From Alicyclobacillus contaminans DSM 17975 (GTDB lineage Bacteria > Bacillota > Bacilli > Alicyclobacillales > Alicyclobacillaceae), in assembly GCF_000429525.1 (NCBI RefSeq), contig NZ_AUCA01000005.1, forward strand, positions 1-64,000: DNA of 64,000 nt, given 5' to 3'. The number at the start of each line of letters is the position of its first letter. Position 1 is the first letter of the stretch. The notes below the pieces were generated by a model. It saw only the letters and a list, made by a program, of their open reading frames with translations, was not told the DNA's origin and did no database searches. A program made the translations under genes and the position numbers. Below are positions 51,339-63,424 of this stretch, in pieces.

Positions 51339-51414
51339 TCGAAGTTCTCGAATGCCGTGGTGTCACAGGACGGTCCGATGCTTCATCTCAATCAGCAACG
51401 AAGGAGGCGGTGCA

Positions 51415-52491
51415 GTGGCACAACCGAGTCCGAGTCCGGCCGCCGTGGGCGGTCTTCGCAAACATCGCCGACTTCAGCGCAAGCAGCGCCGACGTCGCAG
51501 GATTCTCCGCTGGTTGGTGGGAAGCCTGGCGACGCTCGCCGTATGGACTGTGGCGTTGGTGGGCATCGGCTTTTATACCCCCTTCGGGCGCAACCTGCGG
51601 TTGACGCTGGCTGAGACCATTCTCAGCACGCGCCACTATATGTACGCCCACTTTTTGACGACGCCATCCGAGTACAATCAACTGGTCACGATGCAGCACC
51701 AGAAGGTCCAAAATACCGGCGTGTCAGAGGCAGTTCGAGTGGTGACGCCGGTGTCGGGGCCCCCCGAACTGCAGTTGCTGCCGGTGTCCGGCGCGGGGTG
51801 GAAGGGGTACGCGCTGCTCGTGCACAACCCGAAGCTGGTACGGCTGGTCACCGCCGAGGTGCACAATGGCATGGGAGAATACATCACCGCCATGGGACAG
51901 CGCACGGGAGCCATTGCGGGAACGAACGCCAGCGGATTCGAAGATCCCAAGGGCGATGGGTGGGGCGGTGTGCCCGTGGGTCTGGTGATGATTGGAGGCC
52001 GGGTGATACAATGGCCGAAAGGCACCAATGACTGGACCACCGTGGGATTCACGACCGACGGCGTGATGGTGATGGGGCAGTACACGGTGGCCCAGTTGCA
52101 GCAGATGGGCGTCCGGGATGCCATGCAGTTCCACCCGGAACTGGTGGTGAACGGCCAACCCATGATCACCTCGGGCGACGGCGGTTGGGGACAAGACCCG
52201 CGCACTGCCATCGGCCAACGAAAGGACGGCACGGTCATCTTTCTGGTCATCGACGGACGCTTTCACGGCGGCAGCGCGCTTGGCGCGAGTCAACGCCAGG
52301 TGCAGGACGAAATGATTCAACTCGGCGCCGTGAACGCGTGCGCGATGGACGGAGGCAGTTCCAGCGTGCTGTACAAGGATGGGCAGGTGGTGAACCACCC
52401 GTCCACCATCGATCCGAACCACCAACGTCACCTGCCGGACGCGTGGATGGTGTTTTCTTCCGTCGCGGCGGCGAATGCGTACGCCCCATGA
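51415..52491 (+). CDS. Phosphodiester glycosidase (NAGPA-domain) exported protein
   Basis: A 358-residue protein with a highly basic N-terminus, one membrane anchor (about residues 30-55), and an extracellular NAGPA domain of about 230 residues. Domain signatures are AGTNASGFEDPKGDGWGG, FHPELVVNGQPM, DPRTAIGQRKDGTVIFLVIDG and the terminal catalytic region NACAMDGGSSSVLYKDG. The family cleaves GlcNAc-phosphodiesters; bacterial ones act on cell-wall or capsular polymers. The GTG at 51415 has GGAGG seven bases upstream. It is a single gene. It may trim the phosphodiester-linked polymers made by the envelope genes here, which is inference. Confidence 0.88.
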   Translation: MAQPSPSPAAVGGLRKHRRLQRKQRRRRRILRWLVGSLATLAVWTVALVGIGFYTPFGRNLRLTLAETILSTRHYMYAHFLTTPSEYNQLVTMQHQKVQNTGVSEAVRVVTPVSGPPELQLLPVSGAGWKGYALLVHNPKLVRLVTAEVHNGMGEYITAMGQRTGAIAGTNASGFEDPKGDGWGGVPVGLVMIGGRVIQWPKGTNDWTTVGFTTDGVMVMGQYTVAQLQQMGVRDAMQFHPELVVNGQPMITSGDGGWGQDPRTAIGQRKDGTVIFLVIDGRFHGGSALGASQRQVQDEMIQLGAVNACAMDGGSSSVLYKDGQVVNHPSTIDPNHQRHLPDAWMVFSSVAAANAYAP

Positions 52492-58796: not shown

Positions 58797-58830
58797 AAAT
58801 ATCTCCTAGGGTTTGTTTGAGGGGATGGAA

Positions 58831-58869
58831 AACCTCCGCTCCGCACGATTGCGGGAGCGGAGGTTCTTT
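58831..58869 (+). terminator. Terminator of the acyl-CoA synthetase gene
   Basis: AACCTCCGCTCC pairs with GGAGCGGAGGTT (58854-58865), followed by CTTT. It also lies at the 3' side of the minus-strand glycosyltransferase gene. Confidence 0.8.
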
Positions 58870-58928
58870 CCGTGCAATCGCGCCGCCGCAAGAGCTAGAA
58901 TGAGCCCTTTGGGCCACCCCATGTGCCG

Positions 58929-60134
58929 TCAGTCAGCCGCTCGCTGGCTGTTGGCGGCCGGCAGCAAGCCGAAGAGCGCCTCGTGAAGCGTGTCCACGCG
59001 CGCCGACCAAGTGTTCGCGCGAAGGAAGTTGGCCACGTCTTCCGCTTTGGCGCGTCGGCGTCCATTCAGAATCTCAAGCAGCGCTGCCACGCCCTCATCC
59101 GCGTTACGCGCCAACCAAACGTAGTCGGACATGCGAGACGTGATTTCGTGGATGGGCGTGGACACAACTTCCCGGCCCGCGGCCAGGTACTCGTAGACCT
59201 TGATGGGATTCACCGCCTGCGACAGTTCGTTGTTCCGAAACGCCACCAAGGTGGCCGCAAAGCCCGCCAGGAATTGCGGAAGTTCTGCGTAGGGCTGGAG
59301 TCCCAAAAAGTGCACGTTCGGCTGTTGTTGCAGCGCTTCAACCGACGTTTCCACCGGCCCAATCAGGACGAAGTGAATATCGGACAACTGCTGCGCCAGG
59401 CCGGCGATGAACGCCTGGTCGACCCAGGAGCCAATGCCGCCGACAAATCCGACGCGCGGTCCGGGGATGTTTTTCAGCAATGGATGCTCCGCCGCGGTTG
59501 CGGCGGTTGCAAAATGGTCGACCTCGGCGGCGTTGGGGAGCAGCCGGACATCGCAATGCCACTGCTCCATCCGCTGTTTCAACCGGTCTGCGGTGGCGTA
59601 CACAAATCGGCTCTGGTACACCAGCGCTCGCTCCATGCCATCGACGACGTCCGCCGCAATCCACCCTTCGAAATGCGCGTGGAAATCCACGCAGTCGTAA
59701 ACCACGGCCACCGGGGACAGGTGAGGGATGAGATCCACGGAGGTCGGCAGCATCGGCAGCAGAATGTATGGCCCTGGACAAGCGGTCCGAATCTGTTGCG
59801 CAAGCAGCGCCTGATTCCATCGATTCACGGTCCGGTACATGTTTCCGAACGGAAGCACGGCGACGGGGGAAAGAACGCGCACCTGACCGCGCCCGCCGTC
59901 TGAATTCATGGTTTCGGCGGCCGGCATTGTCCCAGCCATCGCATGCAGGGATTGCCGTGGCAACAGCCGCTGGCGCAGCGATGGGTTTTTCAGTGGACTC
60001 AGCCAGGTCACCGGCGGATTGACGAATAAGACATTCCAACCGCGTTCGGCCAGACCGCGCGCGAAGTGCTGCGGCCGGGCTGTCGTCCCGCTCCAGGGGA
60101 CGGCCGATGTCAAAACAATGGTGGGTCGTGTCAT
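58929..60134 (-). CDS. Glycosyltransferase, TuaH-like (GT-B fold)
   Basis: A 401-residue transferase. The N-terminal half has IVLTSAVPWSGTTARPQHFA, and a DxD-like VVYDCVDFHAHFEGW. The C-terminal domain shows GPRVGFVGGIGSWVDQAFI, LIGPVE and NPIKVYEYLAAGREVVSTP, the donor-nucleotide loop of GT1/GT4 enzymes. It most resembles TuaH of teichuronic acid synthesis. The start is uncertain: ATG 60134 gives a normal N-terminus but its AAAGGAG is 14 bases away; ATG 60191 adds 19 residues. It is the last gene of the three-gene envelope operon (gap 28 to 84 bases). Confidence 0.85.
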   Translation of the reverse strand: MTRPTIVLTSAVPWSGTTARPQHFARGLAERGWNVLFVNPPVTWLSPLKNPSLRQRLLPRQSLHAMAGTMPAAETMNSDGGRGQVRVLSPVAVLPFGNMYRTVNRWNQALLAQQIRTACPGPYILLPMLPTSVDLIPHLSPVAVVYDCVDFHAHFEGWIAADVVDGMERALVYQSRFVYATADRLKQRMEQWHCDVRLLPNAAEVDHFATAATAAEHPLLKNIPGPRVGFVGGIGSWVDQAFIAGLAQQLSDIHFVLIGPVETSVEALQQQPNVHFLGLQPYAELPQFLAGFAATLVAFRNNELSQAVNPIKVYEYLAAGREVVSTPIHEITSRMSDYVWLARNADEGVAALLEILNGRRRAKAEDVANFLRANTWSARVDTLHEALFGLLPAANSQRAAD

Positions 60135-60218
60135 GGACGAGGTGCCTACTCCTTTGTCTGTCTTTTGACCGCTCGCGTTGTGGGCGGACATGGGAACGCC
60201 GCTCGGTCCATGGGTTCC

Positions 60219-60947
60219 TCAGGCCGTGAGCCGCCGCCATTTGTACAGACTCACGGCAATGCGGTAGAACACCATCAACAGGCCGAGGGCACTCACGAAA
60301 GCAAAGAATGGCGGAATCGCCAAGAACGCGATGAACACCAGCATGGTGAAGTACTGCTCGCCGATGATAAAGCTGCGGAACGGCACCAAGGCGCGAAGGC
60401 GCTGCAGGCGTGAAAATCCGTCGTTCGGCGTCGAATGCGCGGCGGTTCGCTGCGCGTCCTGGCCACCGGATCCATTCAACTTGCGAAGGAAGTCCACCTG
60501 GCCCAAGTATTCCAGCATGTACAAGGCGAAGAGGGCCACCATCGCCCAAATCCAGATGTCCTGTCGATCCGGATGGTGCTTCGTGTAGCCCCAGGCCAGG
60601 CTGAAATACACTGCGAATTCCTTGATTCGATCCGCCACTTGGTCCAGCCATCCGCCGATGGGCGAGAACTGCTGGCGATAGCGCGCCAACTGGCCGTCCG
60701 CGCAGTCCACCACGTAGGACAGCTGCACGAGTATGAGGCCAATCCAAACCGCCGTACATCCGCCCATCGCGAACGCTGCGCATCCAATCAACGCCATTCC
60801 CAACGAGGAAAGGGTCAACCCGTTTGGGGTGACCCCAGTGTTGCGCAGCAGATAGACCAGGCGGATGGACAACGGGTAGTACAGGTAGTTGGTCCAGATA
60901 TCAATGGGTCGTTTGGCGCATGCGTCAATGCGTTTCAGTTCTGACAT
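60219..60947 (-). CDS. CDP-alcohol phosphatidyltransferase family enzyme
   Basis: A 242-residue membrane enzyme with about six helices. The catalytic motif is complete: D-x2-DG-x2-AR-x8-G-x3-D-x3-D, seen as DCADGQLAR followed by GGWLDQVADR. It moves a phospho-group from a CDP-activated alcohol to an acceptor alcohol. Classical phosphatidyl-glycerol or -serine synthases are smaller and lack the long N-terminal and central cytoplasmic segments seen here. The Gly/Ser/Asn-rich loop (NGSGGQDAQRTAAHS) at about residue 160 is unusual. It lies between the nucleotidyltransferase and the glycosyltransferase. The acceptor and donor are unknown. Confidence 0.88.
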   Translation of the reverse strand: MSELKRIDACAKRPIDIWTNYLYYPLSIRLVYLLRNTGVTPNGLTLSSLGMALIGCAAFAMGGCTAVWIGLILVQLSYVVDCADGQLARYRQQFSPIGGWLDQVADRIKEFAVYFSLAWGYTKHHPDRQDIWIWAMVALFALYMLEYLGQVDFLRKLNGSGGQDAQRTAAHSTPNDGFSRLQRLRALVPFRSFIIGEQYFTMLVFIAFLAIPPFFAFVSALGLLMVFYRIAVSLYKWRRLTA

Positions 60948-60974
60948 ATGATTCACTCACTCATTTTCACTGCT

Positions 60975-61712
60975 TCACTGCAGAGTTTGAAATGTCCGCA
61001 CCACTTCGTTCACGGCATACTCGTAGTCTTCCGGGAAATCGACTTCGACGCAGGGCAATCCAGTGATGTCGACCGCGAGCAACTGGGACTTGTCCTCCAT
61101 CGCGTCGAGGGCGTGTTCAAAAAACTTCATTTCGTTGCCGGCGTGGGCTTCGCGATGCACCGTCTCTCGGAACCTGCACGCGAGCGCTCCGGTAAACTTG
61201 GCCACACCGATGAATTCGCCATAGCACACTTCCGGATTGAGGTGCTTTCCAATATCGGTGATCTGCGATCCCGAGACTATCACCTTCACCTCTTCTTCCC
61301 GGCACTGCTTGCGATCAATGGCCAGGTGACCGCCGTCGCTGCAGGGCACCAGACGCTCGAGGATTTGATGGTCAAACACCACGTCGGCGTTGAGGTAATA
61401 GAAGTCTCCGGTGTATTCGGTCAAAGCGTGGTTTAAGGAGAACAGCGTATTGGTGGTGGCGAAGTCGGGGTTTTCCACATACGTGACGCGCACGTCCGGG
61501 TGGTGAGCCGCGATGTGCTCTTGGATCATATCTTTGCGGTAGCCCACCACCATCACGATGTCTTTCACATCGATATGTTTCAGGGCTTCCAACTGCCAGT
61601 CCAGAATCGTTTTGGAGCCCATGGGCAACAGACACTTCGGCTTATCGTTCGTGAGCGGGCGCAGCCTCGTGGACATGCCCGCGGCAAGAATGACGGCATG
61701 AATGGGTTGCAT
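60975..61712 (-). CDS. NTP-transferase family cytidylyl/nucleotidyltransferase
   Basis: A 245-residue enzyme of the sugar-nucleotidyltransferase superfamily. The N-terminal signature ILAAGMSTRLRPLTNDKPK matches GxGxR-x7-PK, and GDFYYLNADVVFDH provides the metal-binding Asp. It belongs to the group containing phosphocholine, inositol-phosphate and glucose-1-phosphate cytidylyltransferases. Pairing with a CDP-alcohol transferase points to a CDP-activated product. The ATG at 61712 has a strong GAGGAGGTTTACTG site. It is first in the operon and divergent from the S-box region. Confidence 0.87.
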   Translation of the reverse strand: MQPIHAVILAAGMSTRLRPLTNDKPKCLLPMGSKTILDWQLEALKHIDVKDIVMVVGYRKDMIQEHIAAHHPDVRVTYVENPDFATTNTLFSLNHALTEYTGDFYYLNADVVFDHQILERLVPCSDGGHLAIDRKQCREEEVKVIVSGSQITDIGKHLNPEVCYGEFIGVAKFTGALACRFRETVHREAHAGNEMKFFEHALDAMEDKSQLLAVDITGLPCVEVDFPEDYEYAVNEVVRTFQTLQ

Positions 61713-61874: not shown

Positions 61875-61908
61875 AACGCCATCAAAAATTACAGATGATT
61901 CACCACAC

Positions 61909-62029
61909 TCTTATCCAGAGCGGCGGAGGGACTGGCCCAATGAAGCCCGGCAACCACCAGGAGAACAACCTGGAGAGGTGCCAATTCCTGCAGGACGGTG
62001 CGAGCAGCGATGTCCTGAGAGATGAGAGA
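61909..62029 (+). ncRNA. SAM-I riboswitch (S-box)
   Basis: The leader carries the S-box core: CTTATCCAGAG, GGCGGAGGGACTGGCCC, TGAAGCCCGGCAACC, GGTGCCAATTCCTGC, then GAGAGATGAGAG. SAM binding should favour the terminator that follows and shut off the sulfur/methionine genes when SAM is plentiful. Confidence 0.95.

Positions 62030-62107: not shown

Positions 62108-63424
<1,317 letters not shown>

Follow-up and report, generated by a model that had tools for sequence, protein, structure and literature searches.

Near one end of the 64,000-nucleotide stretch of Alicyclobacillus contaminans DSM 17975 DNA analysed here (the window; genome G000), three adjoining genes code for a nucleotidyltransferase (NTP), a CDP-alcohol phosphotransferase (CDP-AP) and a glycosyltransferase (GT), and we asked which phospho-alcohol the first two enzymes, referred to below as the pair, may activate and transfer, and what the third may contribute. 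A literature search found no paper on this gene set.

Gene organization of the locus

Analysis of the region 58929-61712 revealed three intact genes on the minus strand, separated by intergenic gaps of 27 nt and 84 nt with the preferred starts (Table 1). The ORF coordinates, together with the alignments described below, bore out the original prediction of three minus-strand genes with gaps of 27-84 nt and complete catalytic motifs. The NTP start is the ATG at 61712, which is preceded by a strong ribosome site, GAGGAGG. The CDP-AP start is the ATG at 60947 (MSELK...), with a GTG 9 nt upstream as the alternative, while for GT the start at 60134 (MTRPTIV...) is best matched by the orthologs and an alternative ATG at 60191 would give a protein of 420 aa. 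The hairpin located 3' of GT, with a minus-strand folding energy of -32.1 kcal/mol (z -6.4) that none of the shuffled sequences reached, is the probable terminator of the three-gene operon.

Table 1. Coordinates of the three genes and the adjoining hairpin within the window
Feature	Position	Strand	Description
NTP (GT-A-fold cytidylyltransferase, 245 aa)	60975..61712	-	Pfam NTP_transf_3/NTP_transferase; predicted CTP:glycerol-phosphate cytidylyltransferase
CDP-alcohol phosphotransferase (CDP-AP), membrane protein, 242 aa	60219..60947	-	Pfam CDP-OH_P_transf
GT4-type glycosyltransferase (GT), 401 aa	58929..60134	-	Pfam Glyco_trans_1_4
Hairpin, probable terminator	58818..58876		Between operon and convergent AMP-binding enzyme gene

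Outside the operon and divergent from it, a SAM riboswitch (Rfam RF00162, 88.1 bits) was identified at 61908-62028 on the plus strand, upstream of a gene for a Cys/Met-metabolism PLP enzyme at 62126. A gene coding for a phosphodiester glycosidase (NAGPA, PF09992) is located on the plus strand at 51352-52491, about 6 kb from the operon; NAGPA-type enzymes split sugar phosphodiesters. The genes flanking the pair differ between lineages, are unrelated (luciferase-like, globin, oligopeptide transport, glutamine synthetase) and give no clue to the substrate.

Distribution among Alicyclobacillaceae

The survey of 41 Alicyclobacillaceae genomes showed orthologs of CDP-AP in 35, of NTP in 32 and of GT in 27, and NTP adjoins CDP-AP in every one of the 32 NTP-bearing genomes, an adjacency far beyond chance. 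The two proteins very probably form a two-enzyme module of cytidylyltransferase and CDP-alcohol phosphotransferase. The expected conservation of the three genes together was confirmed in 22 of the 41 genomes and, in the shuffled order GT-NTP-CDP-AP, in two genomes of a sister family; no additional carrier came to light when the sister-family transferase was searched for across the phylum. The pair without GT occurs in ten genomes, all of one genus (the A. acidocaldarius-type group), CDP-AP and GT without NTP in three (G020, G021 and G022), and GT only in two, one of which is 72% complete, while four genomes carry none of the three genes.

GT is thus not an obligate partner, since the pair occurs without GT in the A. 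acidocaldarius-type group and GT without the pair in two genomes. In most lineages GT shares the locus with the pair, and the decoration of the pair's product, originally envisaged as its task, is a putative role. No membrane segment was detected in GT by hydropathy. The TuaH-like character assigned to it originally stood as a resemblance only: the match to the TuaH profile (NF047676) is partial, and its score of 78.5 bits is far from the cut-off of 550.

Family, fold and catalytic residues of the nucleotidyltransferase

Structures were compared by means of AlphaFold models and Foldseek searches against the PDB, and a sequence profile was built from 28 NTP relatives. The NTP model (pLDDT 94.9) best matched PntC, LicC and IPCT, ahead of MurU, RmlA and GalU. 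With the profile, LicC and PntC were matched over their full length at 102.6 and 90.5 bits, while UDP-glucose enzymes reached about 30 bits in the N-terminal part only; none of the NCBIfam models scored above its own cut-off for any of the three operon proteins. Profile and Foldseek results place NTP firmly in the COG1213-type phospho-alcohol cytidylyltransferases (the LicC/PntC/IPCT/CpgD group) and not, in agreement with the original prediction, among the plain UDP-glucose or dTDP-glucose enzymes.

The NTP motifs are complete (GxSTRLRPLT..PK, N-A-D110 and E223-x-D225), and Arg16, Lys26, K156 and the metal-site residues Asp110, Glu223 and Asp225 are conserved without exception in the alignment of 28 sequences. 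R16, K26 and K156 align with PntC R15, K25 and K153, which are required for activity (PMC6697681). Residue S92 stands at the position of CpgD Thr93, which reads cytosine (PMC13228409); the serine is kept and would be compatible with the use of CTP. Lysines 135 and 143 are invariant among the NTP orthologs.

The CDP-alcohol phosphotransferase

All eight residues of the signature D1xxD2G1xxAR...G2xxxD3xxxD4 were found in CDP-AP and its relatives (31/31 aligned sequences), and the P(D/N)xx(T/S) motif that precedes the signature is present as PNGLT. The Foldseek search with the CDP-AP model (pLDDT 89.9) retrieved AF2299 first, followed by DIPPS and then by CDP-diacylglycerol-using PIP synthases, and AF2299 was the top match by sequence as well. 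The donor of AF2299 is CDP-glycerol (Clarke et al., PMC4634129); the place taken by a lipid groove in PIP synthase is, in AF2299 and DIPPS, a hydrophilic pocket of small size for the donor (PMC4634129).

More distant CDP-AP relatives (about 35-44% identity) adjoin a fusion of NTP with a PhnW-like aminotransferase and a second NTP. Operons of this kind, with a CDP-alcohol phosphotransferase, a PntC-like NTP/aminotransferase fusion (~612 aa) and a second NTP, were observed at loci L064-L067 and L070-L072. Since a PepM match is absent from several of the genomes that carry them (G139, G149, G169, G073 and G129), AEP may not be the substrate of the fusion in these cases. A second AF2299-like paralog, 30% identical, was found in the window's genome (contig C26, L055 8024-8764) with no NTP adjoining, and such a paralog is also present in about ten relatives.

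Residue 108 and the choice of substrate

In PntC and LicC the head group is contacted by E104 and D105, respectively, and the counterpart in NTP is residue 108. It is Asn in 22 of 22 window-type orthologs and coincides with N110 of CpgD, an enzyme that activates phosphoglycerate and whose N110 touches the glycerate (PMC13228409). Asn108 was also found in three homologues with glycerol-type neighbours, namely L106 (Solidesulfovibrio carbinolicus plasmid), whose gene overlaps that of a CDP-glycerol glycerophosphotransferase (PF04464), L103 (Streptomyces fungicidicus plasmid), which adjoins a glycerol-1-phosphate dehydrogenase, and L116 (Cobetia phage Carin-5), which adjoins GpsA and a glycerophosphodiesterase (GDPD), as well as in L108, L110 and L111, loci without a decisive partner gene. 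Asp or Glu occupies the site in all seven amine-context lineages (LicC, PntC, three PepM loci, one PhnW locus and the aminotransferase fusions), and also in the second NTPs of the aminotransferase-fusion operons and in two loci with no evident partner gene; Tyr is found in two loci of presumed amide type. Asn108 in three glycerol contexts against none of the seven amine lineages gives p = 0.008, a value to be read with the caveat that L103 and L106 had already been seen before the residue rule was fixed; among the loci examined later, L116 as a glycerol context and three loci with PepM fitted the rule. The Fusobacterium homologue L118 was left out of this comparison.

The gene neighbourhoods themselves are as follows. 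At L106 (4781-6678) the glycerophosphotransferase gene overlaps the start of the cytidylyltransferase gene, which is annotated as phosphocholine type. At L116 (2963-6674) GpsA, a window-like GT-A cytidylyltransferase, a glycosyltransferase and the glycerophosphodiesterase are encoded side by side in the phage, possibly as a glycerophosphate modification cassette. L103 (4518-9771) codes for a DUF5941/CDP-alcohol phosphotransferase fusion, a cytidylyltransferase, a glycerol-1-phosphate dehydrogenase-like protein, a second CDP-alcohol phosphotransferase and a GT2 enzyme.

A head group of choline, ethanolamine or AEP type as the product of the pair might be argued from LicC and PntC, the closest solved structures to NTP, and from the PntC-like fusions beside CDP-AP relatives in other families, but we regard it as very unlikely, given that the amine-binding acid at position 108 is replaced by Asn in all orthologs and that no aminotransferase adjoins the pair. 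In the window's genome PepM (PEP mutase) gave no match at all, on which the phosphonate reading was rejected, and the choline kinase family gave weak matches only, here and everywhere else searched, so that choline, one of the products originally envisaged, was likewise dropped.

An inositol phosphodiester (a DIP-like solute or an inositol lipid) had been envisaged as well. IPCT has the fold of NTP and an ExxK...IGKxL motif in common with it, and DIPPS is the second-closest fold for CDP-AP; inositol-1-phosphate synthase, however, was found in 0 of the 41 family genomes, with six control genomes positive, and IPCT carries Met at 108. Inositol was rejected on the absence of the synthase, and this alternative is extremely unlikely. 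CDP-ribitol was also rejected: genome G035, which has a TarI/TarJ-type cluster by ORF reading, still has NTP.

Because Asn108 is also present in CpgD, some probability, albeit a small one, attaches to phosphoglycerate, a universal metabolite that NTP would activate as CpgD does, the pair then making a glycerate-bearing lipid or solute to be glycosylated by GT. The asparagine would make the glycerate contact, and the invariant lysines 135 and 143 could hold the carboxylate. On the other hand, Glu199 is found in the window type and in all three glycerol-context homologues, whereas L108, L110 and L111, which by our own assignment would be CpgD-like, have Leu at this position. The phylogenetic tree showed that L106 and L116, and not L108, L110 and L111, form the sister group of the window-type NTP (support 93/84), a grouping of moderate support; the glycerol-type neighbourhoods are few, and their functions are predicted. 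Near the metal site, C-x-E-x-D-F is likewise common to the window type, L106 and L116. The phosphoglycerate reading moreover leaves the distribution of TagD, described below, unexplained. The marks proposed for a GT-A glycerol-phosphate cytidylyltransferase, Asn108 together with Glu199 and relatives beside glycerol-phosphate genes, were observed for NTP, in a small sample.

Distribution of TagD

The distribution of TagD is considered the most telling substrate test. Among the 41 genomes TagD was found in exactly G020, G021 and G022, which are the only CDP-AP-bearing genomes without NTP, and there it is part of a teichoic-acid cluster that also codes for two glycerophosphotransferases. No match over the cut-off of the TagD model (TIGR01518) was obtained in the window's genome, and TagD is absent from both NTP-bearing sister-family genomes. 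In the CDP-AP tree the sister family is positioned outside and G020/G021 inside the Alicyclobacillaceae, and loss of NTP where TagD is present is therefore the simplest reading. The weight of the pattern is limited because it represents one clade, so that at genus level the chance of it is about 1 in 13. PF04464 glycerophosphotransferases are absent from the window's genome, which makes a classical teichoic polymer unlikely there.

In the CDP-AP of the G020-G022 clade, the Arg at aligned position 190, otherwise invariant in the orthologs, is changed to Ser or Cys, and it may instead be the substrate of these enzymes that changed. This replacement and the single clade behind the pattern, together with the sugar-1-phosphate enzymes of the same fold, would suit an activity of NTP on another sugar or polyol phosphate (e.g. 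erythritol, mannitol or hexose 1-phosphate) with the TagD pattern as a coincidence. We consider this rather unlikely, as sugar enzymes match mainly the N-terminal half with fewer bits and the neighbourhood evidence favours glycerol.

Proposed function

Because of the TagD pattern, Asn108 and the grouping with L106 and L116, NTP is probably of the glycerol-phosphate type. Glycerol phosphate, which the original prediction did not name, is a universal metabolite, and genome content cannot confirm this reading. The soluble NTP would couple CTP with a small phospho-alcohol that carries no amine, most likely glycerol phosphate, and thereby form CDP-glycerol. The AF2299-like CDP-AP would then pass the glycerophosphate group on to an acceptor on the cytoplasmic side of the membrane, and the outcome would be either a lipid (glycerophospho-lipid or glycolipid) or a small phosphodiester solute. 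Where it is present, the cytosolic GT, dispensable for the pair, would probably build or lengthen a glycoside of this envelope compound. Intact genes, family membership, conserved adjacency, catalytic residues, the lack of inositol-1-phosphate synthase and PepM and the complementarity with TagD are computed results, from which the substrate, the transfer reaction, the acceptor and the role of GT are inferred; the complete scheme we hold to be just about probable. A broader proposal is more tentative, namely that the GT-A NTP replaces TagD in a second, non-homologous bacterial route to CDP-glycerol, which would lead to a glycosylated glycerophosphate lipid or solute as yet undescribed in Alicyclobacillaceae; the phage and the Solidesulfovibrio plasmid would carry the same type of enzyme.

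Comparison with known systems

Both protein families are already known, and loosely similar pairs of NTP and CDP-AP are annotated in public plasmid records; new are the conserved module of Alicyclobacillaceae, its mutual exclusion with TagD and the residue-108 rule. The pair is a widespread (32/41 genomes) and uncharacterised envelope-type module of a family living in hot, acidic places.

The IPCT/DIPPS system of hyperthermophiles (Archaeoglobus fulgidus 2xme and 4mnd; Thermotoga maritima 4jd0) likewise combines a GT-A cytidylyltransferase with a CDP-alcohol phosphotransferase of similar fold, but here the genes are separate, the family has no inositol-1-phosphate synthase and residue 108 is different. 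AF2299 (4o6m, 4o6n and 4q7c), the closest solved relative of CDP-AP by sequence and fold, has its own N-terminal cytidylyltransferase-like domain, while CDP-AP has a separate GT-A partner. PntC and LicC (6pd1 and 1jyk), the closest solved relatives of NTP, have the same catalytic Arg and Lys but an amine-binding acid in place of Asn108, and no amine pathway was found in the genome. The likeness of GT to TuaH is confined to a partial profile match, and this operon contains no other Tua gene.

CpgD (PMC12275187, PMC13228409) resembles NTP as a GT-A cytidylyltransferase acting on a three-carbon phosphate with Asn at the same site; it belongs to the Caulobacter ceramide pathway, and glycerol-1-phosphate is not its substrate (PMC12275187). 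If the glycerol reading is true, Asn versus Asp/Glu at position 108 would be a useful mark, applicable to many genomes, for telling enzymes of the glycerol type from those of the choline and phosphonate types. TagD/TarD are unrelated to NTP in fold and have the same proposed product, CDP-glycerol, and in the Alicyclobacillaceae the two kinds of enzyme are mutually exclusive; on the same reading, this textbook intermediate would have a second origin, in an enzyme whose homologues now bear the annotation phosphocholine cytidylyltransferase.
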